NCBI GenBank assembly: GCA_023248535.1
Contig: JAHFEJ010000010.1
Location: 1 to 55,707 of the forward strand
Reading direction: 5' to 3'
Length of the DNA stretch: 55,707 bases
DNA from: Nitrospinales bacterium
GTDB lineage: Bacteria; Nitrospinota_A; UBA7883; JACRGQ01
The notes below the pieces were generated by a model, which worked only from the letters and a program-made list of their open reading frames with translations, was not told where the DNA came from and made no database searches. The translations under genes and the position numbers were made by a program. Below, in pieces: positions 15,537-28,427 of the stretch. The number at the start of each line of letters is the position of its first letter. The first letter of the stretch is position 1.

Positions 15537-15992
15537 TTACGGAAGGCTTTTTGGGCAAAGTTGACTTTTTTTGTAGACGATGCACAGAATACCAACGATT
15601 TCTTCTATTTCGAAGGTTTCATAATGCTTTAAGGCTCCAGCCCTCTTGGCTTCCTCGCTGGTTTTAGCGGCCGATGCGGTGCGCGCCACCAGGATGTAAG
15701 GCAAATTTTTGTGCGGCAGATATCGGCCCCTTCCCTCGCGCAAATGTTTCAGCAGGGCGATTGCCAATCCGGCTTCGTCGGGCGCAGCGATGTGTACAAC
15801 CAGCCCGAACTTGGTATTTGAGTCGAGCGCCGTGATCAGGGCGCGTTCATCGCATATTTGTTTGAAAAATATTGGGCAACTTTCCTTTCCTTTTTTGGTT
15901 ACGCAGTTGGCGATGAGATTTCCAATTTTAATATGAGATTCTTCAGGATGCAGGACAAGAATGCTCATGCAAGGCATTTTATCGCTTGGCAT
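15537..15992 (-). CDS. Receiver-like (pseudo-receiver) protein at end of chemosensory operon
   Basis: 151 residues from ATG 15992, with a perfect AGGAGG 8 bases upstream and only 25 bases after the receptor gene stop. It is not a clear family member. The layout resembles a CheY-like fold: strand MSILVLHPEES, a third strand FGLVVHIAAPDEAG, a fourth ending YILVARTAS and a fifth near ALKHYETFE. The Thr and Lys positions of receivers appear kept, but the strand-3 phosphoacceptor Asp and the N-terminal acidic pair are absent. It could be a phosphorylation-independent adaptor. The fold call is my inference from pattern. Confidence 0.6.
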   Translation of the reverse strand: MPSDKMPCMSILVLHPEESHIKIGNLIANCVTKKGKESCPIFFKQICDERALITALDSNTKFGLVVHIAAPDEAGLAIALLKHLREGRGRYLPHKNLPYILVARTASAAKTSEEAKRAGALKHYETFEIEEIVGILCIVYKKSQLCPKSLP

Positions 15993-16017: not shown

Positions 16018-18195
16018 TTACGCCCAGTCTTCTTTGTGCAGGCTTATTTCCTTCGGGCCGCCATTGTTGGTTTCCACCTTGAAGCGGCCGATCATCGATT
16101 CCAGGCCGCCGGCGATCTTCGCCAGTTCCCCGGACGACGCGTTTATCTGCTGGATGCCGCTGTTGTTGTCGCCAACCGCCTTCGATATCCCCTGAATGTT
16201 CGACGATATCTCGTTCGTCCCCCTGGCCGCTTCGCCGGCGTTGCGTGCCGTTTCGCCGGCCCCCTTCGCCACTTCGGCTATCGATGACGCTATCGAATTC
16301 GCCCCCGCCGTAACCTCGGAGACGTTCTTCGATATCTCGTTGGCCGCCACCATCTGCTGGTTCACCACGTTGGTTATCACCCCCACGGCCCCGTGAATCT
16401 TGCCGATGATCTTGGCGATGTCGTCGATCACCCGCACCGCGCCGTTGGAGCTGTGCTGAACCCCCTCGATTTTCGCCGCGATCTCCTCCGCCGCCTGCGC
16501 ACTCTGGTTCGCCAGCTGTTTTATCTCATTCGCCACCACCGCGAAGCCGCGCCCCGCTTCCCCCGCCGACGCCGCCTCTATCGTCGCGTTCAGCGCCAAC
16601 AGGTTCGTCTGCTCCGCTATCCGCTTGATCATCTCCGTCACCTTCCCGATCTCATTGGCCGCGCCCCCCAGCGTCTGCATCGTCTCGCTGGCCGATTTCG
16701 ACAGACCCATCGCGTCGTTGGCCACCTTCGAGGTCTGCTCGCTGTTCCCCGCGATGTCCTTGATGGTGATCGACATCTCCTCGATCGCGCTGGCTATCGA
16801 ACTCATGTTCGCCGACATCTGCTCGGCGGTCGAGGCCACGGTGGATGAATTCGCGCTCGATTCCTCGGCCCCCGCCGCCATCGCGTTGATATTCGCCGAC
16901 AGCTGCTCCGTCGCGCTGGCCACCCCGGATGCCTGCGCGTTCATCTCTTCAGACCCGCTGGCAAGCTGCGACGATATCGCCGACATCTCTTCCGCCGAGG
17001 CGGCAAGCGTTTTCGAGTTCTGCCCGATCTCGACAAACATTTTTCTGAGATCCGCGACCATGGTATTGACGTTGCCGCCCAAAACGCCCATTTCATCCTC
17101 AGACACAACCGGCACTTCCTGCGTGAAATCGCCTTTGGCGATCTCCCCCATCACATATCCGGCATCTTTAACGGATTTGAGAATGCTCCTGGCAATCGAG
17201 ACCGCCACGATGAGGGTCATGGTCAACACCCCAAGGCTGACGACCAAGGTGAAAATAAGCGCGGTTTTGGCCTCTCTGGATTTCGTACCTGTCACTTTCC
17301 CAATTTCCGTTTTTAAATGCCCCGTGATCAGTTTTTTGTCAACCAGCTCCATTTTTTCAGTCTGAACCTTAACCCACTCGGCTGGATTAACATCGAAATG
17401 GCCTTCGTCAACTTTTGCTATGGCAAGTTCCCGGAACTGTTCGGATTTGGCCGTGCTGGGATCCTTAAGGACATCAAGAAGCACATCACGGTCATCTTTT
17501 GGCATCGCGGTCAAATAGATATTTTTGAAATTTTCCTGGGATTTGACGCACTCGATCAGATTCCGGTAGGTTCCGCGCGCAAACTTGTTGCTGGTAAAAG
17601 CGCCGCTGAGAATGGCTCGCTCCACCCCCATCGGCTCTTTGAACATCAGCATGGAGTAAAAACCGTTGAAATGGTAGGCAAGTTCCCCGTCTTCAAGGAG
17701 TGTCGGTATCTCCCCGATAATGTTAAGAAACAGGATGTCCGTGGTGGAATAGAAAATCATCGCATCGTTGAACGGCCTTGAAAGGGTGCTGATTTCCACC
17801 CTTTCATCTTCGAATTTACCGAGGCGTTCGATTGCCAGTTTGATGGTTGGCTCAAGATCCTGATCCTTGAAGTTGGCAAGGAAATCTTTGAATTTCTTAA
17901 TTGTGGCGTCCGTGACGTTCCGCTGGGCGTTCATCTCGGATTCGTATTTTGTTCCGGCGGAACTGAGGTAGATACCGCTTGCGTCGCGCTCCTTTTGTAT
18001 GGCGTCGGCAAGTTCATTAACTTCCAGCGCCAGAACGGTGAGTTCTCCCACATGGGCAATGGTTCTTACGTCTTTGATTTCCCCGACGATGCTGGCGGTA
18101 TTAAAACAAAGCAAGGCGACAAGCGCCGGAGCCAAAATTGCGCCGAGCTTGTACTTGATGGATAAATTGCCAAAATGCCTTAATATGGCCGTCAT
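16018..18195 (-). CDS. Methyl-accepting chemotaxis protein with NIT-type sensor (copy 1)
   Basis: 725 residues. Membrane helix about 16-38; periplasmic NIT-like domain about 45-305 ([37 protein letters not shown]); second helix about 315-340; HAMP about 340-395; then the cytoplasmic four-helix signalling domain with tip [23 protein letters not shown] domains are known or predicted to sense nitrate and nitrite. It ends [11 protein letters not shown] and has no NWETF-type tail. From MVADLRKMF to HK its DNA appears identical to copy 2, while the sensor half is clearly different. A promoter candidate lies upstream. Confidence 0.94.
16031..17063 (-). repeat. 1033-bp direct repeat, copy A (receptor signalling domain)
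   Basis: Apparently identical to 18524-19556 at constant offset 2493. It ends sharply at both sides: base 16030 differs from 18523, and 17064 differs from 19557. It encodes 344 codons of the receptor signalling domain. Confidence 0.93.
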
Positions 18196-18513
18196 CTTTT
18201 CGTTCCCCCCGAAACTTCGAAGTTGCTTTTCCGGTATCCCCTCCCCTGTGGGCGGAATGATGGATAATATACAATAGCGAACTCTTTATACCAACAAGAT
18301 TATTAACCCTTTTGCGGCATGGAAATTATTTTTTTAACAGGCATTGTATCTTATCGTGTCACTTTGTTTTAACCGACCCAATTCATTGTTTAGATAAGCG
18401 TTCCTCGCAGAACCAGTTGATTTTCGATTATTGAGGCCGGTTTGCGATATAGCTAAAAAGCAGGGCATGCTACGTGCCTGAATGAGGTGGTTTTTTGGGG
18501 ACAAATTTTATAG
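18196..18513. other. Gap between the two NIT receptor genes
   Basis: 318 bases without a gene. The part near copy 1 holds a sigma70-like promoter (separate entry). The rest, beyond the stop of copy 2, is AT-rich with no clear terminator stem or repeat. Confidence 0.5.
18266..18294 (-). promoter_or_regulatory. Sigma70-like promoter for the copy 1 receptor
   Basis: On the minus strand TTGGTA (18294-18289) and TATATT (18271-18266) are separated by exactly 17 bases, about 70 bases before the ATG. This suggests copy 1 and the pseudo-receiver can be expressed apart from cheA. Confidence 0.5.
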
Positions 18514-20688
18514 TTACACGGTGTCTTTGTGCAGGCTTATTTCCTTCGGGCCGCCATTGTTGGTTTCCACCTTGAAGCGGCCGATCATCGATTCCAGGCC
18601 GCCGGCGATCTTCGCCAGTTCCCCGGACGACGCGTTTATCTGCTGGATGCCGCTGTTGTTGTCGCCAACCGCCTTCGATATCCCCTGAATGTTCGACGAT
18701 ATCTCGTTCGTCCCCCTGGCCGCTTCGCCGGCGTTGCGTGCCGTTTCGCCGGCCCCCTTCGCCACTTCGGCTATCGATGACGCTATCGAATTCGCCCCCG
18801 CCGTAACCTCGGAGACGTTCTTCGATATCTCGTTGGCCGCCACCATCTGCTGGTTCACCACGTTGGTTATCACCCCCACGGCCCCGTGAATCTTGCCGAT
18901 GATCTTGGCGATGTCGTCGATCACCCGCACCGCGCCGTTGGAGCTGTGCTGAACCCCCTCGATTTTCGCCGCGATCTCCTCCGCCGCCTGCGCACTCTGG
19001 TTCGCCAGCTGTTTTATCTCATTCGCCACCACCGCGAAGCCGCGCCCCGCTTCCCCCGCCGACGCCGCCTCTATCGTCGCGTTCAGCGCCAACAGGTTCG
19101 TCTGCTCCGCTATCCGCTTGATCATCTCCGTCACCTTCCCGATCTCATTGGCCGCGCCCCCCAGCGTCTGCATCGTCTCGCTGGCCGATTTCGACAGACC
19201 CATCGCGTCGTTGGCCACCTTCGAGGTCTGCTCGCTGTTCCCCGCGATGTCCTTGATGGTGATCGACATCTCCTCGATCGCGCTGGCTATCGAACTCATG
19301 TTCGCCGACATCTGCTCGGCGGTCGAGGCCACGGTGGATGAATTCGCGCTCGATTCCTCGGCCCCCGCCGCCATCGCGTTGATATTCGCCGACAGCTGCT
19401 CCGTCGCGCTGGCCACCCCGGATGCCTGCGCGTTCATCTCTTCAGACCCGCTGGCAAGCTGCGACGATATCGCCGACATCTCTTCCGCCGAGGCGGCAAG
19501 CGTTTTCGAGTTCTGCCCGATCTCGACAAACATTTTTCTGAGATCCGCGACCATGGCGTTCACCGATCTACCCAAGGTTCCCACTTCATCCCGCGAGGTG
19601 ACCGGCACTTCGCGCGTGAAGTCCCCTTCCGCGAGGGATGAAACCACGCTCACCGTGTCATTCATGCTTGTGGTAAGCGCCCGCGCGATTGTAAGCGAAA
19701 CGAGAAACGTCGCCAGCATCGCCAACAGGGAGATAACCCAGGTGAAAACCAGGGCCGCCCTGCTTGCCGCCAACCTGCTATCGGTGACCCTGGTAAGCTC
19801 CTTTTGCAGATGACCGAGGATAACCTTTTTGTGAACCAGGTTTATCTTTTCCGTTTGAACCGCAAACCATTCCTTGGGATCCTTGCCAAAGCCCCCCGTC
19901 GCGGCCTTTTCAAAGGCGGCCGCCCGGAACTCTTCGGCTTTTTTCACCACAGGGTCTTTTTGATAATCAAGAAACGCATCCCGGTCGTCCGGCGCCATAA
20001 CGCTTAAATAGAACTTTTGAAAATTGTCCTGTGCCTGGATCACTTCAACCAGCTTGCGCTCCATGCCGGGAGCGAATTTATCCCCCGTAAAGGCGCCGTT
20101 CAATACGGCCCGTTCGATCCCCATCGGTTCCTTATAAAGTTGCAACGTATAAAAACCGATGAGGTGGGTTGCTATCTCGCCGTCGGAAATTAGTTCCAGC
20201 ATCCCGCCGATCACCTCGATGAAGGCGCGGTTGGTTCCCGAATAAAATCCAATGGCGTCCGGCATACTGATAGAAAGGGCGCTTACGGCGTTTCTTTTGT
20301 TTTTCAGATCGCCAGCCTTCTCCATGGCCGTTTTTATCCTGTCGTCCAGGTCCGGCTCCTTAAAGTCTTCCAGAAACTTTTTTAACGCCTCGATTTTTTC
20401 ATCGGTGGCTCCCCTTTGCGTTTCAAGCTCCGATTTGAAACTTTGTCCTTGCGAACCAAGGTACGCCGCCGTCATGCCGCGCTCTTTCTGCAACTCGTGC
20501 ACGGTGTCGCCGATGCCGTAGGCAAGGTCGCGCAATTTCATGAAATGATGTATGTCATTCAACGCGGCATTTCTTTCCACGATGCTGACGGCGGAGTAAT
20601 AGAGCAAGGCGATCAATGTGGGGGCGATAATGCCCGCCAACTTGTATCTAAGCGGAAGATTACCAAGAAAATTCCTGAAAAATCCCAT
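18514..20688 (-). CDS. Methyl-accepting chemotaxis protein with NIT-type sensor (copy 2)
   Basis: 724 residues from ATG 20688, preceded by GGGGAGGGG; a frame open further upstream (to 20844) lacks sense as coding. Architecture equals copy 1: membrane helix, NIT-like periplasmic domain ([36 protein letters not shown]), second helix near 315-340, HAMP, signalling domain. The sensor half shares only scattered identity with copy 1, whereas the last 344 codons before the tail appear identical in DNA. The C-terminal tail is HKDTV against HKEDWA in copy 1. It probably senses a related but different small ligand. Confidence 0.94.
18524..19556 (-). repeat. 1033-bp direct repeat, copy B (receptor signalling domain)
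   Basis: Second copy of the block at 16031-17063. Bounded inside the gene by MVADLRKMF at the 5' end and HK at the 3' end. The neighbouring receptor at 23127-25052 has only short identical runs, for example around 23695-23744. Confidence 0.93.
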
Positions 20689-20956
20689 GTCGTCAGCCCC
20701 TCCCCAGCCCAGTTGCTTATCGGCCGGCTCTCCAATCCGGCATTTTCGCTCCCTCGCGCATCCCAATAGCGCGGGAACTTCAACTGAATCGTAACACAAT
20801 TTGGCTATTTTAGGGGGGGGGGGATTGGTATGATAATGGCTCAAAACGACTCAGTTTGAATTTTCCTGAAAGTCTTTATGCAAACGTGTTGCGCCTGCCA
20901 TACATTTACAACGCCGGTTGGCTTATAGAGTTATTTTCAAACTGAAACGCCAACCG
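20689..20956. other. Gap between cheR and receptor copy 2, with a G11 tract
   Basis: 268 bases. A run of eleven G (plus strand, 20813-20823) lies about 125 bases upstream of the receptor ATG. The ribosome site is clear; no convincing promoter hexamers were found. Confidence 0.4.
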
Positions 20957-21859
20957 TTATTTTTTGACGGTCAATTTGGGGTCGGAACCGGTTCCGGCCT
21001 TGCGGGCACGGTGAAGGATTGTGCTCTTATGGGTCATCGATTCGAAATCCACCCCCATCCCTTGGACGTTTTCACACGCCCCCAACATTAAAAACCCCTC
21101 CGGGGAAAGCAACTGGTGCATTTGCCGCATGATCTTCCGCTTGGTCTCGTCATCGAAATAAATGAGAATATTGCGGCACAGGATCACATCAAATCCTCCC
21201 AGGGTGGTAAAAGGTTCGGTAATGTTTATCCTGCGGAATTCGATGATCGACCGCAGCTCGTTGCTGACCGCCCATCCCGAATCGGTTTTGGTGAAATATT
21301 TCGCGCGCCGCTCCGCCGAAAGGCCGCGGGCTATTTCCATATCGGAGTAGCAGCCGCCGATGGCCTGCGCCAGCACGCTGCTGGAGATGTCGGTGGCGAG
21401 GATATCAAAGTCCTCGAGAGCGACCCCCTTATGCCCGTTGGCCTTGACATGTTCGTGTATCAGCATCGCCAAGCTGTATGCCTCTTGACCGGTGGATGCG
21501 GCGGCCGACCAGATGCGCACCTTGGCGCCCCGCCGTTGGATCGCGCTCTTCTTGCGCTGGACGATCATCTGCTCCAATGCGGGCAACAGCGACTCCCTAA
21601 AAGTTTCAAACGGATGCCCGTCGCGGAAAAACGACGTTTCGTTTGTGGTCATGGCTTCAATAACCTCATCCCGCAGCCGGGGATCAGTGTTTATTTTCAA
21701 TTTATCGATAAGCCCCTGAAACGACCCGCCGCCGGCCGTCTTGGCCAGCCTGAAAAGCCGTTGTTCCACAAGGTACTGTTTTTCATTGCCGATGCTCAGG
21801 CCGCAGATTTTATATATATAACTGGTGAGCGCGGTGAATTCTTCCGGTTTCAACTTCAT
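20957..21859 (-). CDS. cheR: Chemotaxis protein methyltransferase
   Basis: A 300-residue CheR. The N-terminal helical domain (about 1-75) is followed by a SAM-dependent methyltransferase domain. Motifs are TNETSFFRD, the SAM loop IWSAAASTGQEAYSLAM, and DVILCRNILIYFD. It adds methyl groups to receptor glutamates, opposing CheB. The ATG overlaps the cheB stop by 4 bases (ATGA), so they are coupled. No tetratricopeptide tail is present. None of the three receptors here ends in the usual CheR-tethering pentapeptide. Confidence 0.96.
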   Translation of the reverse strand: MKLKPEEFTALTSYIYKICGLSIGNEKQYLVEQRLFRLAKTAGGGSFQGLIDKLKINTDPRLRDEVIEAMTTNETSFFRDGHPFETFRESLLPALEQMIVQRKKSAIQRRGAKVRIWSAAASTGQEAYSLAMLIHEHVKANGHKGVALEDFDILATDISSSVLAQAIGGCYSDMEIARGLSAERRAKYFTKTDSGWAVSNELRSIIEFRRINITEPFTTLGGFDVILCRNILIYFDDETKRKIMRQMHQLLSPEGFLMLGACENVQGMGVDFESMTHKSTILHRARKAGTGSDPKLTVKK

Positions 21860-22998
21860 GATGCTTTTCTCCTGCGGTCGACTTCCCGCTTAACCGCCTG
21901 GGGAATCTCCCCCAGCGGCAATATTTCATCCACGATGCCGGTGGCCACGGCGCTGCCCGGCATACCCCACACAACGCTCGATGCCTCGTCCTGCACAATG
22001 AGGTGGGTGCCGGCGCGCTTCAGGGGACCCGCCCCTTTCGCGCCATCGCTCCCCATGCCGGTGAGGATCAAAGTGATGTTATCGCCGTTATACACCGATG
22101 CGGCCGAGCGAAAGAGCACGTCCACCGAAGGGCGGCAGCCGTTTTCGGGAGGCTGGCCGTTGAGGCCGATGTTGATGCGCCCGGCATCGGTCCTGCGCAA
22201 CACCATGTGCATACCCCCCGGCGCGATATAGATGTGGTCGCCGCTGATTTCCATGCCATCGGTGGCCTCCACCACCGTATGGCGGCACTTGGCATTCAGG
22301 CTGGCCGCAAGCGAGGCGGTAAAAAGCGGCGGCATGTGCTGCACGATGAACATCGGCAAATCAACCGCCGCTGAAAGTTCCGGAAGCATGGTGGCAAGCG
22401 CTTTGGGGCCTCCCGTTGAAACGCCTATGAGCACCGCTTTCGCGGCGCCCGCCGGGACCGATTTGGGGCTGAAGGCGGGCGTCGCAGGTTTCGGCGGAGG
22501 AGGCGGCGGGGCTGGACGCGCGGCGGTTTGGCCTTCGGCACCCCCCTGCCTGATGAGCACTTTGCGTTTGAGGGTATATTGGCGGATCTTGGCGGTAAGG
22601 CTTTTTTTCAACCGGTCGCGGTTGGCTTCATGCCCCCCTTCATTCGGCTTTTCAATAAAGTCGAACGCTCCCGCCTCAAGCGCCTGGATCGTGGTATCCA
22701 TGCCGTATTTGGTGTGGGAACTGACCATAATAACGCCGATGCCGTATTGGGAGCCGCTGGTGGCATTGAATTCCTGAATTGCCTTCAACGCGTCAAGCCC
22801 GTTCATCACCGGCATTTCAACATCCATGGTGACCACGTCCGGCGGCACGGCGGCGGCTTTGATAAAATCAAGCGCTTTCGCGCCGTTCATCACCGATCCC
22901 ACGATCTCGATATCATTTTCCCCGCGCAATGCCTCTTCAACAAAGCGGCGGAATATAAGCGAATCATCAACGACGAGTACTTTTATTTTTTCTGCCAT
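21856..22998 (-). CDS. cheB: Chemotaxis response regulator protein-glutamate methylesterase
   Basis: 380 residues from ATG 22998, with AAGGATA just upstream; extending to 23040 adds an unlikely N-terminus. A receiver (about 1-125; VVDDSLIFRR, phosphoacceptor Asp in VVTMDVEMPVMNG) is joined by a proline-rich linker (PAPPPPPPKPATP) to the esterase domain. Catalytic triad parts are GVSTGGPKAL (Ser), VQHMPPLF (His) and GMGSDGAKG (Asp). It removes receptor methyl groups and deamidates them, giving adaptation with CheR. No cheD is nearby. Confidence 0.97.
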   Translation of the reverse strand: MAEKIKVLVVDDSLIFRRFVEEALRGENDIEIVGSVMNGAKALDFIKAAAVPPDVVTMDVEMPVMNGLDALKAIQEFNATSGSQYGIGVIMVSSHTKYGMDTTIQALEAGAFDFIEKPNEGGHEANRDRLKKSLTAKIRQYTLKRKVLIRQGGAEGQTAARPAPPPPPPKPATPAFSPKSVPAGAAKAVLIGVSTGGPKALATMLPELSAAVDLPMFIVQHMPPLFTASLAASLNAKCRHTVVEATDGMEISGDHIYIAPGGMHMVLRRTDAGRINIGLNGQPPENGCRPSVDVLFRSAASVYNGDNITLILTGMGSDGAKGAGPLKRAGTHLIVQDEASSVVWGMPGSAVATGIVDEILPLGEIPQAVKREVDRRRKAS

Positions 22999-23126
22999 TA
23001 TCCTTATCATTATAAAGAGCGCCTGCTGAAAACGCCACATTTTATGACATTTCCCCGGAAGGGATTCTCAGGCTCGCGCGCGGCTGTCAGGTTCCGGAAT
23101 GTGTCCCCTCGGCAACAGCTTTGGCT

Positions 23127-25052
23127 TCAGGCTCGTCCTTGGCCGTTGTTTTCCACCTTAAAGCGGGCAATCATTGCCTGCATTGAGCTGGCCATCTTCG
23201 CCAGTTCGCCGGACGACGAATTGATCTGCCGGATGCCGCTGTTGTTGTCCACAACGGCCTTCGATATCCCCTGTATGTTCGAGGAAACCTCATTCGCCCC
23301 GCGCGCCGCCTCGCCAGAATTCCGGCTTATCTCAGTCGCCCCCTTCGCCACTTCGGCTATCGAGCCGGCGATATCAACCGCCCCCTTGCTCACTTCCGAC
23401 ACGTTGCGCGATATCTCGTTCGCCGCCGCCGTCTGCTGGTTCACCGCGCCGGTAATGGTGCCCACCGACTCGTTGATCTTCCCGATGATGTCCGACACAT
23501 CCGAGATCACCTTCACCGCGCTGGTGGTGCTCCCCCGAACGCCGTCAATTTTTGCCGCGATCTCCTCGGCGGCCCGCGCGCTTTGGTTCGCCAGCTCTTT
23601 TATCTCGTTGGCGACGACCGCGAAACCCCTGCCCGCCTCGCCCGCGCTCGCCGCCTCGATGGTCGCGTTCAGCGCCAGCAGATTGGTCTGCTCCGCTATC
23701 CGCTTGATCATCTCCGTCACCTTCCCGATCTCATTGGCCGCCGCGCCTAGTGTCTGCATGGTATCGCTGGCGTTCTTCGACAGCCCCATCGCCTGACCAG
23801 CAACCTTGGACGTTTCATCGGCGCTTTTGGCCACTTCGCGGATCGACTGGGACATTTCCTCGACCGATGAGGCGATGGAGTGCATATTCGCCGACATCTC
23901 CTCCGCCGTGCCCGAAACGGTGGTGGCGTTCGCGCTTGCTTCTTCCACCGCCGCGGCCATGGAATTGATGTTCGCCGACATCTGCTCGGTGGCGGCGGCG
24001 ACACCGCCCGCCTGTTGCGACATCTGTTCGGAACTGGCCGAAAGCTGCGTCGAGACCGCCGAAAGCTCCTCGGACGAGGTTGCGAGGCTCTTTGAGTTTT
24101 GCCCCAGACCGGTGAATATGCCCCGCAGTTCGAAAACCATTTCATTGACGGCTCCGCCCAGTTCGGCTATTTCGTCTTTCCCCTCAACCGGCACCTCCTG
24201 CGTGAAATCGCCCGCCGCGATATCTTTCACGACGTTCACGGTGTTTCCAACCGACTTTCTGATATTTCGCGCGATGATGAACGCCAGAAGCTGGCCGGCC
24301 AAAGTGCCGACGATTGCGGTAAGTAAAACAAGCCATTTTGCGGACGTATAAGCTGCGGCCGATTCCTCTTCGGCTTGTTTCAACTGATCCTGGTAACGTT
24401 TTACCTGCTTGTCGAGAACCGACTCCATTTCGCCAACAAGCTTTCGGTTTTCATCCATCGAAACATGGACGGCCTTTAAATAATCCGTGCGCATTTTCAT
24501 GACCGCTGGCGTGACTGCGGCCGAGGCGATTTGAGTGGCGTCGATATCGGCGCACAGGACGAACACCTTTTTCACCCCTTCATAATAGGTATCGAACTTG
24601 GCATCAAATTCGCTCCACGTTTTCCTGGCTCCCTCGGATGACAACCCCTTTATTTTCTCTATCTTTTCCTTTAATCCCTTATGTTTATCATCGCGTTTTT
24701 GAACCCAGCCGGCATTGTTCGCCGCGTCGTATTCGATGATAAAGTTCTTTTCTATTCTTATGATATCCGTCATGCCGCTGGAAATGTCCAGCGTCAATGC
24801 CACCTTTTGCCCAATTCCCGTGTTGTATTCGACCTTCTCCTGAATGGCCGCCATTCTGTCCATGCTGACCGCCACCATTACAATGGAAACCAGCGCCAGA
24901 ACAACCGTGATCAACGTGAGTTTAGTCCCCATCCGCATATTCTTGAGGCCGAATCCGCCCTCTGCGCCACCGGTGGTAACAGACGGTTTCCGCGCGCCGG
25001 TGCGGCGCTCATCATTATGTTTTTTAATCGCAACTACTCTGTCCATTTGCAT
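23127..25052 (-). CDS. Methyl-accepting chemotaxis protein with helical (4HB-type) sensor
   Basis: 641 residues. A cytoplasmic N-terminal stretch of about 40 residues precedes the first membrane helix (about 45-65). The periplasmic part (about 66-270) is all helical, like 4HB/TarH sensors (DISSGMTDIIRIEKNFI). A second helix, HAMP ([20 protein letters not shown]) and a signalling domain with tip [20 protein letters not shown] follow. It differs from the NIT receptors in sensor class and in many signalling residues. It sits between cheW and cheB, 7 bases after cheW. Ligand unknown. Confidence 0.93.
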   Translation of the reverse strand: MQMDRVVAIKKHNDERRTGARKPSVTTGGAEGGFGLKNMRMGTKLTLITVVLALVSIVMVAVSMDRMAAIQEKVEYNTGIGQKVALTLDISSGMTDIIRIEKNFIIEYDAANNAGWVQKRDDKHKGLKEKIEKIKGLSSEGARKTWSEFDAKFDTYYEGVKKVFVLCADIDATQIASAAVTPAVMKMRTDYLKAVHVSMDENRKLVGEMESVLDKQVKRYQDQLKQAEEESAAAYTSAKWLVLLTAIVGTLAGQLLAFIIARNIRKSVGNTVNVVKDIAAGDFTQEVPVEGKDEIAELGGAVNEMVFELRGIFTGLGQNSKSLATSSEELSAVSTQLSASSEQMSQQAGGVAAATEQMSANINSMAAAVEEASANATTVSGTAEEMSANMHSIASSVEEMSQSIREVAKSADETSKVAGQAMGLSKNASDTMQTLGAAANEIGKVTEMIKRIAEQTNLLALNATIEAASAGEAGRGFAVVANEIKELANQSARAAEEIAAKIDGVRGSTTSAVKVISDVSDIIGKINESVGTITGAVNQQTAAANEISRNVSEVSKGAVDIAGSIAEVAKGATEISRNSGEAARGANEVSSNIQGISKAVVDNNSGIRQINSSSGELAKMASSMQAMIARFKVENNGQGRA

Positions 25053-25059
25053 AATCCCT

Positions 25060-25557
25060 TTATTGCTTTGTTTCTATGGATCCCAGGAATTTTCTGGCGT
25101 CCAACACCACCAGCAGGGATTGAGGCAGTTTGCAAACGGACTGAACCATGCCGGGGCCGCCCATTTTTTCCTGGCCGCCGCCGTCGATCCCTCCCGTTTC
25201 TATCTGGTCGCTTGAAATTTCCACCACATCGCCGATTTGATCCACCAGCACGCCGAACGATTCGCCGACGGTGGCTTTGAAGATGACCAGACAGCTCTTG
25301 CGGTCGATCTCCTTGCTCTCGAATCCGAGCATGGGGCGGAGATCCAGGATCAGGTATACCTGGCCGCGGATGTTCACATACCCTTTCACTTCGCGGGGGG
25401 CATGGAAAATGGGGGTGATGGCGACTTCGGGATGTATTTCCTTCACATCCAATATCTGAACGCCGAAAAGGCGTCCGGAAAGCCAAAAAGTGCAGAACTG
25501 CCGGTTCTGCACCACCGCCTTCTCCTTTTCGGATTTTTGTGCAGTAATGGTTTCCAT
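25060..25557 (-). CDS. cheW: CheW coupling protein
   Basis: A 165-residue CheW with the SH3-like doublet fold: FCTFWLSGRLFGVQILDVKEI, then YVNIRGQVYLILDLRPMLGF, then FGVLVDQIGDVVEI. It links receptors to CheA in arrays at the inner membrane. GGAGGAGG precedes the ATG. It lies 14 bases after cheA and 7 before the receptor gene. A short glycine-rich loop (GGIDGGGQEKMGGPG) is inserted before the last strand, which is slightly unusual. Confidence 0.95.
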   Translation of the reverse strand: METITAQKSEKEKAVVQNRQFCTFWLSGRLFGVQILDVKEIHPEVAITPIFHAPREVKGYVNIRGQVYLILDLRPMLGFESKEIDRKSCLVIFKATVGESFGVLVDQIGDVVEISSDQIETGGIDGGGQEKMGGPGMVQSVCKLPQSLLVVLDARKFLGSIETKQ

Positions 25558-25571
25558 GTTTTCCTCCTCCC

Positions 25572-28427
25572 TCAGTTCCTGCTGCCTACACCGGCGGACA
25601 TTACGGCCGCAACGGTGGAGAGCAACTGATCGCGGTTCATTTTCAGCTCATAATGGTCGAACCCGGCATCCTTGGCGCTTGTCCTGTCCTTTTCGTTGTT
25701 GAGCGCGGTGAGGGCGATGGCGGGGATGTCCTTTTGGCGGCTGCCGGCACGCAGGTTCTTAATAAACGCCATGCCGTCCATGACCGGCATCTGTATGTCG
25801 GAGATAACGAGATCGAAATCGCGGCTGGCCAGTTGGGCTAGCCCGTCCTGCCCGTTTTCGGCCACCATCACATCGTACCCCTCCGCCTCGAGATATTTTT
25901 TCACCAGACGGCGGAAGAAAGGGGAATCCTCCACGAGGAGTATTTTGCCGCCGGGCCTCCCGCCGCCGGAGGCGAACCACGAAGGCTCCGCTTTCCGGAT
26001 GATAGAATCGATATCCAGGAACAGCGTCATCTTATCCTTGATGATGGCGGTGCCGAGAAGCCCCTCTTCCGCATAGGATTCCGTGTTAAGTTCAACGGTG
26101 GTTTCGATGGTATCCAGCAGTTGCGAGACAAGCACTCCGAACGGGTGGCGCGCCACGCGCGGGATGATCAGGAACATCTCCTTTTTGTCCTCGGTGGGCG
26201 TGACCGCAAGGTACCGGTCCGGCCGCAGGATAAGGGTGGACTGCCCCTCTATGGTGATGTATTCGCGGCCGCCGATATGTTCGATGTTCTCCGTTTTGAT
26301 GGTCTCGATACGCTTGATAATGAAAAGCGGGGCCGCCAACTGCTCGGTGGGGCCGCTTTTGAACAGGAGCACCCGCTGCGTGTCCGTCGTGCGGAGCGTG
26401 CTGCGGTCCTGAATGGCTTCCTTGGCGCCGTCGAAGTTGACCCCGGCGTGGCGGGCCACCCCCTGCACGTCGAGGATAAGCGCCACGCGGCCATCCCCCA
26501 TGACCGTCGAACCGGCATAGCATCCAAGCGATTTCACGGCCGGATGCACCGGCTTCACCACGATCTCCTCGGTGCCGATGACTTTGTCCACCACCAGTCC
26601 AAAGGAGTTGTTCGACACATTCACCACGATGAAGTTAAGCGAATGGGGTTCCTGTGCCGCACCATCCTCGCCAGCCCCGGCGATATCGGCCAGGTATTTT
26701 TCCTGCCGCTGCCGGTTCTCTTCGGTGATTGACGAACGGTCGGCGCCGGTGAACGGTTTGTTGCGTTTCATCACTTCATCAAGCCGTACGATGGGAAGCA
26801 GTTTGTCGCGTAGCCGGTACACCTCGGTGTCCCCGGCGCATTCTATCTTCGTCGCAACATCCTTATCGTACAGACAGACCAACTCCTCCAGATTCACCTG
26901 CGGGATGGCATAGCGGTATTTGCCCACCAGCACGATCAGGCACGGGATGATCGCCAGCGTCAGCGGCAGCCGCATATGGACGGTGCTCCCCTTGCCAACG
27001 TGCGATTCGATGTCCAACGTGCCGCCCAGCCGCTCGATGCCGGTCTTCACCACATCCATGCCAACGCCGCGGCCCGATACGTCGCTCAGCTTCTCGGCGG
27101 TGGAGAAGCCGGGAAGCAGAATGAGCGAAATGATCTCTTTCTCGCCCATCTCGGCCAACTCGGCTTCCGTCTTCAATCCCTTTTCCAGCGCTTTGCGGCG
27201 GATCACTTCGGGATTTATCCCTTTGCCGTCGTCCACCATTTCTATGTTTATCTGGCCGCTGCGGTGATAGGCGCGCAGGCTCACCTTCCCGGCTTCTTTT
27301 TTGCCCGCCTTCACGCGGTCGGCGGGCATCTCTATGCCGTGATCGCATGAATTGCGCACCAGATGCGTCATCGGATCGGTAAGGGCTTCGAGGATGGTGT
27401 TATCCAGCTCCACGTCGGCGCCGGTGATGTCCAGCTCTATCTGCTTGCCCAGCTTCTGGCCGAGGTCGCGCACCACGCGGGTAAACCGGTTGAAGAGGTT
27501 GCCGATCGGCTGCATGCGGGTGGCCATGATGGTTTCCTGCAATTCGGAGGTGACGATATCAAGCCGCTGGATATTGGCGCGGCTGTTGGGATTGGAACGG
27601 TCCTCGGAAAGCAACTGTTGGTTGCGCACCAGAACCAGTTCGCCGGCAAGCTGCATCAGCTCGTCCAGTATGCTCAGTTTTATCCGGATCGTCTCCTGAC
27701 GCCGGTCGACAAATTCCGTCCGTTCACCTCTCCGCTCAACAAACGCCGGTTTTTCCTGGGGCGGGCCTGCCTGGGCTTGGCTTATACGCGCGGTGTCATC
27801 GGATGATGGGATCGGTTCCGCTTTGGCGGCGACGGCGCTTTTTTCCGCGGCCGCTTTTGCTTCCGCGAAAATACTGTCCATTGAAGGGTCGCCCGCCGCC
27901 GCGGCGGTGTTTATCCGGGCTGTATCGTTAAGCGATACCGCAGTGCTGGCGACAAAGGCATCCAGGCGCTCCACCACCTTGTCCCTGTTTTGATCTTTGA
28001 TCTTCTCGACCTCTGCCACCACGTTGCTGATGCCGCCCAAAATGAAAGTCTCCATGCGTGCGACCACATCGGTAATATTGTGACTGTTGCTGTTTGACAC
28101 GTCATCGATCATGCTGCGGATGCTGTCTATGGCCGCCAGCAGCGCGTCCACAAGGCCCGGCTTCATCGTCAGTTCCCCGGCGCGGAGCATCGAAAGAAGC
28201 GTTTCCCCCGCATGGGCCACCGCTTGCAGTTTGGTAAGACCCACAAAGCCGGCCGTCCCCTTGATGGTGTGCACCACGCGGAATATCTGGTTCACCGCAT
28301 CGATAAAACCGGCGCTCCCGGCCTGTTTTTCCAGGCCCAGAACGGCCTCTTCAACCGTTTCGAGATGTTCTTTTGCCTCGGTGACAAAATCATCCAGGAT
28401 CGACTGATCTGCAAACTGGTCTTCCAT
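25572..28427 (-). CDS. cheA: Hybrid CheA histidine kinase with two CheW-like modules and a receiver
   Basis: A 951-residue kinase. In order: HPt about 1-115 with phosphoacceptor His53 (VVHTIKGTAGF); a long linker; dimerisation helices about 240-305 (ILDELMQLAGELVLVRN); HATPase about 310-480 (LVRNSCDHGIE, DDGKGI, GRGVGMDVV); CheW-like module about 485-640; a second CheW-like module about 690-820 (LFIIKRIETI, FGVLVSQLLDTIE); and a receiver about 830-945 (ILLVEDSPFFRR, VISDIQMPVMDG). The fused receiver may take the place of a separate CheY or act as a phosphate sink. GAGGGGG precedes the ATG. It is the first gene of the operon. The architecture matches gliding/pilus or alternative-function systems better than a classic flagellar CheA. 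Confidence 0.95.
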   Translation of the reverse strand: MEDQFADQSILDDFVTEAKEHLETVEEAVLGLEKQAGSAGFIDAVNQIFRVVHTIKGTAGFVGLTKLQAVAHAGETLLSMLRAGELTMKPGLVDALLAAIDSIRSMIDDVSNSNSHNITDVVARMETFILGGISNVVAEVEKIKDQNRDKVVERLDAFVASTAVSLNDTARINTAAAAGDPSMDSIFAEAKAAAEKSAVAAKAEPIPSSDDTARISQAQAGPPQEKPAFVERRGERTEFVDRRQETIRIKLSILDELMQLAGELVLVRNQQLLSEDRSNPNSRANIQRLDIVTSELQETIMATRMQPIGNLFNRFTRVVRDLGQKLGKQIELDITGADVELDNTILEALTDPMTHLVRNSCDHGIEMPADRVKAGKKEAGKVSLRAYHRSGQINIEMVDDGKGINPEVIRRKALEKGLKTEAELAEMGEKEIISLILLPGFSTAEKLSDVSGRGVGMDVVKTGIERLGGTLDIESHVGKGSTVHMRLPLTLAIIPCLIVLVGKYRYAIPQVNLEELVCLYDKDVATKIECAGDTEVYRLRDKLLPIVRLDEVMKRNKPFTGADRSSITEENRQRQEKYLADIAGAGEDGAAQEPHSLNFIVVNVSNNSFGLVVDKVIGTEEIVVKPVHPAVKSLGCYAGSTVMGDGRVALILDVQGVARHAGVNFDGAKEAIQDRSTLRTTDTQRVLLFKSGPTEQLAAPLFIIKRIETIKTENIEHIGGREYITIEGQSTLILRPDRYLAVTPTEDKKEMFLIIPRVARHPFGVLVSQLLDTIETTVELNTESYAEEGLLGTAIIKDKMTLFLDIDSIIRKAEPSWFASGGGRPGGKILLVEDSPFFRRLVKKYLEAEGYDVMVAENGQDGLAQLASRDFDLVISDIQMPVMDGMAFIKNLRAGSRQKDIPAIALTALNNEKDRTSAKDAGFDHYELKMNRDQLLSTVAAVMSAGVGSRN

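Follow-up and report, generated by a model that had tools for sequence, protein, structure and literature searches.

An identical 1033-bp signalling block in two tandem NIT chemoreceptor genes of a Nitrospinales bacterium, probably the product of recent gene conversion

How do many different chemoreceptors remain compatible with a single CheA/CheW array as their sensors drift apart? The question arises with a contig of a Nitrospinales bacterium (JAHFEJ010000010.1, assembly GCA_023248535.1), of which the 55,707 nucleotides analysed here are referred to as the window. Two neighbouring receptor genes in the window share the DNA of their signalling halves and differ in their sensors. The features concerned are the following.

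16018-18195, minus strand: receptor gene 1 (P0001, 725 aa), with NIT sensor, HAMP and MCP signalling domain
16031-17063, minus strand: signalling block, first copy (agrees with the second at 1033/1033 bp)
17064-18195, minus strand: receptor 1 sensor and most of HAMP (S1 type); orthologues in G002:C117 (85% aa) and G007:C297 (64% aa)
18196-18513, minus strand: intergenic region between receptors 1 and 2; about 130 bp upstream of S1 are also kept upstream of S1 in G002
18514-20688, minus strand: receptor gene 2 (P0002, 724 aa, start ATG at 20688), with NIT sensor, HAMP and MCP signalling domain
18524-19556, minus strand: signalling block, second copy (agrees with the first at 1033/1033 bp)
19557-20688, minus strand: receptor 2 sensor and most of HAMP (S2 type); orthologue in G003:C16 (59% aa); 44% aa to S1
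20957-21859, minus strand: cheR (Pfam CheR, PF01739)
21856-23040, minus strand: cheB (Pfam CheB_methylest and Response_reg)
23127-25052, minus strand: third receptor of the cluster, P0003, with a 4HB-type sensor; the block of this gene shares 73-75% identity with the repeat, without homogenisation between them
25060-25557, minus strand: cheW (Pfam)
25572-28427, minus strand: cheA (Pfam; Hpt, dimer, HATPase, CheW and receiver)

The two receptor genes lie in tandem, head-to-tail on the minus strand, directly downstream of cheA-cheW-mcp(P0003)-cheB-cheR. Both open reading frames are intact, and each contains the Pfam domains NIT (PF08376; 125.6 and 174.1 bits in the two receptors, cut-off 24.9), HAMP (42.0 and 44.9 bits, cut-off 25) and MCPsignal (PF00015; 112.9 and 113.9 bits, cut-off 34.6), as well as the 15 residues of the conserved MCP hairpin tip. 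By sequence, both are methyl-accepting chemotaxis proteins with a NIT sensor of the nitrate/nitrite type. The length of receptor 2 is counted from the ATG at 20688, as opposed to the mechanical start of the reading frame, a TTG at 20844. A run of 11 C on the minus strand (20813-20823), which could be variable in length, separates cheR from receptor 2 and lies about 125 bp ahead of the receptor 2 start codon. Right behind receptor 1 on the same strand is a 151-aa open reading frame (15537-15992) with GGAGG ahead of its start; it had no match in Pfam or NCBIfam, and is likely the last gene of the same operon as the receptors.

An earlier note on this DNA had described the repeat as identical, with sharp ends inside both genes and with sensors and HAMP only partly similar, and each of these points was borne out. 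Aligned base by base, 16031-17063 and 18524-19556 form a maximal exact match of 1033 bp with 0 mismatches; taken at face value, the assembly sets a 95% upper bound of 0.29% on the true divergence. Just upstream of the blocks, in HAMP and sensor, identity falls to 45-68% per 50 bp, the sequences being homologous yet diverged; just past the 3' ends it is at background (about 25%) and the sequences are unrelated. The block thereby spans from the last few HAMP residues (MVADLRKMF...) to 4-5 codons short of each stop, and the protein tails beyond it differ, EDWA in one and DTV in the other, the latter end reading ...EISLHK and then DTV. Such identity is far beyond chance. In a survey that took up to 20 kb per contig from 120 contigs (1.75 Mb out of 2.87 Mb in the genome), the block is the longest exact repeat; the second longest, of 316 bp, lies in another tandem MCP pair (contig C83), and the remainder are three repeats of 130-154 bp plus contig-end overlaps of about 120 bp. 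A plasmid search for close DNA relatives returned only an Azospirillum MCP covering 6% of the query, and this comparison gave no sign of a mobile element.

The sensors have a history of their own. With HAMP included, the two window sensors are 55% identical to each other in DNA; that of receptor 1 is 82% identical to its counterpart in G002 and 66% to that in G007, which belongs to another genus, and that of receptor 2 is 69% identical to the G003 sensor. In the sensor tree, all branches of which are well supported, receptor 1 groups with its G002 and G007 orthologues and receptor 2 with its G003 orthologue, and an AU test rejects receptors 1 and 2 as sister sensors (p-AU 4.4e-54). S1 and S2 are thus old paralogues, each with an orthologue in another genome. 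The tree of the segment conflicts with that of its flanks, and paralogues of the same genome are joined in the block only (AU tests, both at this locus and at a second one described below).

The same conflict is seen at silent sites, a comparison that the earlier note had called for and that came out in favour of its gene conversion reading. Between receptors 1 and 2 the sensor is saturated for synonymous change (pS 0.75), whereas the block has changed at 0 of 244 synonymous sites, giving a dS of 0. Between sensor orthologues of different species, by contrast, block dS is 0.44 (receptor 1 against G002, 387 nt) and 0.71 (receptor 2 against G003, 129 nt); the three-way comparison is confined to these lengths, as the contigs of both orthologues end within the block. 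Selection for an unchanged protein does not by itself explain the identity, because silent sites are unchanged as well. The simplest reading is that one block was replaced by the other after the species split. Over its first 129 nt, moreover, the G003 S2 block has 84% identity to the repeat and 80% to the G002 S1 block, and no other paralogue exceeds 69%; this short stretch suggests that the genus had already gone through a previous round of homogenisation.

The pattern is not confined to this pair. A second tandem MCP pair lies in the same genome, G000, on the minus strand of contig C83 (L159, 8868-12696). Its MCP signalling domain is clearly different from that of the window receptors, and its sensors are of the 4HB type, below the Pfam cut-off. 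The last ~950 bp of the two genes are 95-96% identical (316 bp of them exactly) and the sensors 53% at the nucleotide level. The orthologous pair in a sister species (G001:C37) has the same gene order, with blocks 95.0% and sensors 49% identical. Across these four genes, each sensor pairs with one in the other species, and each block with its neighbour in the same genome. Trees that hold the two G000 sensors together are rejected (p 4e-63), as are those that unite the block orthologues (p 1.7e-5 and 3e-20). Block dS is 0.19 and 0.15 within the two genomes, as opposed to 0.54-0.56 between orthologues and to 1.6-2.5 outside the block. Therefore, homogenisation has occurred separately in the two lineages. 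In a further genome, contigs G003:C48 and C34 both stop, at their starts, inside a block of the C83 type, the first 234 and last 53 bases being present and the middle missing; a repeat of that block in G003 too would be expected to give such ends. In G007, contig C319 opens with the closing 118 bp of a preceding receptor's block, which has 1 mismatch (99%) to the contig's own block end, and similarity stops there.

Could the assembly have produced the repeat in the window, as the earlier note allowed? On this account the graph would have collapsed two similar but non-identical signalling halves (or those of differently related strains) and the same consensus would have been printed twice. Contig ends overlap exactly by 118-121 bp, as is characteristic of short-read de Bruijn assembly with k about 120, so the 1033-bp repeat was probably unspanned by single reads or pairs and the contig follows a loop in the graph. 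Apart from the window block, no exact repeat over 316 bp occurs inside the sampled contigs, and contigs of relatives stop inside these blocks (G003:C16, G002:C117, G007:C46/C319 and G001:C14/C88); contig ends inside blocks number at least 7 in the relatives against about 2.7 expected (Poisson p 0.02), a crude post-hoc count to be taken as a hint only. However, the middle segment (17064-18523) runs into the block on either side, which requires at least two copies, since a single copy cannot give all four junctions. A collapse would still need near-identical copies, and the C83 copies, distinguishable at 96% and hence separately assembled, show the same pattern. We therefore consider the artefact unlikely. 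What stands of the mis-assembly alternative is a limit on the literal word "identical": both copies pass through one collapsed node, so a few true differences could have been merged and the middle unit could be other than single. What falls is the notion that mis-assembly by itself created the repeat.

Two biological alternatives fare worse. The tandem, head-to-tail layout and the shared domain order would suit a recent duplication of a whole receptor, followed by fast divergence or replacement of one sensor; yet each sensor type has orthologues of its own in other species (for S1, also in another genus), so that both are older than the block identity, and their synonymous sites are saturated while those of the block are unchanged, which leaves this account hardly credible. 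Very improbable, too, is the capture of a ready-made signalling end by a sensor that lacked one, that is, domain shuffling rather than replacement of a homologous end. Mismatched sensors and blocks do occur elsewhere: the receptor at L055 (G007:C319, 1-2183) combines a P0003-type 4HB sensor with a signalling block of the NIT-receptor kind, and the blocks of P0003 and G007:C319 are rejected as sisters (p 1.3e-6). It may be a chimera or a converted gene in another genus. However, HAMP and a signalling end in the same arrangement are already present in the S1 and S2 orthologues of G002, G003 and G007, so that replacement is simpler, and the tract ends coincide with loss of homology. The fusion of a fixed signalling end to a new sensor, offered by the earlier note beside gene conversion, is for these reasons disfavoured.

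Recent gene conversion, within a recurring concerted evolution of signalling halves, is the best explanation, and we hold it with high confidence given the conflict of sensor and block trees, the block dS of 0 and the recurrence at C83 and in the sister species. The starting point is two old tandem paralogues, both NIT chemoreceptors of one che cluster. On this view one signalling half was very recently overwritten with the other over about 1 kb, probably by homologous recombination between the neighbouring copies. On both sides the tract stops where homology is lost: within HAMP on the upstream side, the sensors beyond being too divergent for recombination, and a few codons short of the stop on the downstream side; we infer a RecA-dependent conversion between neighbours whose ends were set by lost homology. 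Since the closest grouping of the repeat is with the block of the S1-type receptor in G002, receptor 1 is slightly more likely to have been the donor and receptor 2 the recipient. Recurring in this manner, the process would hold neighbouring receptors of one genome to similar signalling halves, with their sensors diverging as separate genes do. A benefit from uniform coupling to the shared CheA/CheW/CheR/CheB, with the receptors locked to one array, is plausible.

A broader proposition can be put forward only tentatively: tandem receptors in this Nitrospinota genus might consist of sensor genes plus a continually recopied output module, with repeated and possibly GC-biased conversion within each pair, such that sensors diversify without drift in array coupling. 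Third-codon-position GC is 0.80-0.84 in the homogenised blocks (window and L159) against 0.60-0.70 in their sensors; however, it is likewise high (0.79-0.80) in the non-homogenised block of P0003, and block GC is thus no demonstration of GC-biased conversion. Nor is homogenisation universal in Nitrospinota clusters, as in the tandem receptors from G015, G016 and G011 no shared block exceeds 80% identity in DNA. In another genus, a tandem of NIT receptors (L074, G006:C29, 6581-9835) has sensors with 83% DNA identity, and its contig stops before the second signalling half; this pair is a younger duplication.

Direct repeats of 1 kb should also permit loss of the 2493-bp unit that carries the receptor 1 sensor. 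Blocks of this kind are places where a draft genome can break or collapse, and trees built from full-length MCPs mix two histories.

Regarding known systems, the sensors resemble NasR, a NIT-domain nitrate regulator of solved structure (PDB 4AKK). The receptor 2 sensor matches it with E 3.5e-12, and a Glu-Arg pair that aligns with NasR E175/R176, the predicted residues of the nitrate pocket (PMC7496416), is retained in both. Nitrate or nitrite is the putative ligand of the window sensors; within the pocket, the check covered this residue pair. Unlike NasR, which has an ANTAR RNA-binding output and neither HAMP nor MCP, the window receptors place NIT in a membrane receptor with HAMP and MCP output. 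No match to NarG-type nitrate reductase or nitrite oxidoreductase exceeded the cut-off in six genomes, and we therefore draw no metabolic link.

As for the shared signalling halves, no general account of gene conversion or concerted evolution in chemoreceptors was found in a search of openly accessible papers. The closest parallel is Campylobacter jejuni, in which the signalling domains of Tlp2, Tlp3 and Tlp4 are identical and the identity of their sensory regions is only ~30%, and in which the tree of Tlp signalling domains follows the genomes and that of the sensors does not (PMC9769880); recombination between the conserved 3' halves of Tlp genes has been proposed as a cause of large inversions (PMC6433261). 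Common to both cases are several receptors per genome with identical signalling domains and sensors of low identity. The Campylobacter receptors, however, have dCache sensors (dCache_1) and come from Campylobacterota, whereas those of the window, from Nitrospinota, carry NIT in place of dCache_1, are immediate tandem neighbours in a che cluster and show no large inversion. The window pair thus evolves like the Tlp2/3/4 group and, on domain content, falls outside it. Concerted evolution by gene conversion between neighbouring paralogues in general gives the same excess of within-genome over between-genome likeness in one sharp-bordered segment; here, in contrast, the segment matches a functional module, the output half of the receptor, and excludes the rest of the gene. 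This is the same kind of phenomenon as in Campylobacter, now in tandem receptors of a different phylum that carry different sensors. Two unrelated tandem pairs with concerted evolution of their signalling halves, in more than one species, offer a natural test, outside Campylobacter, of how receptors keep to one array as their sensors diverge.
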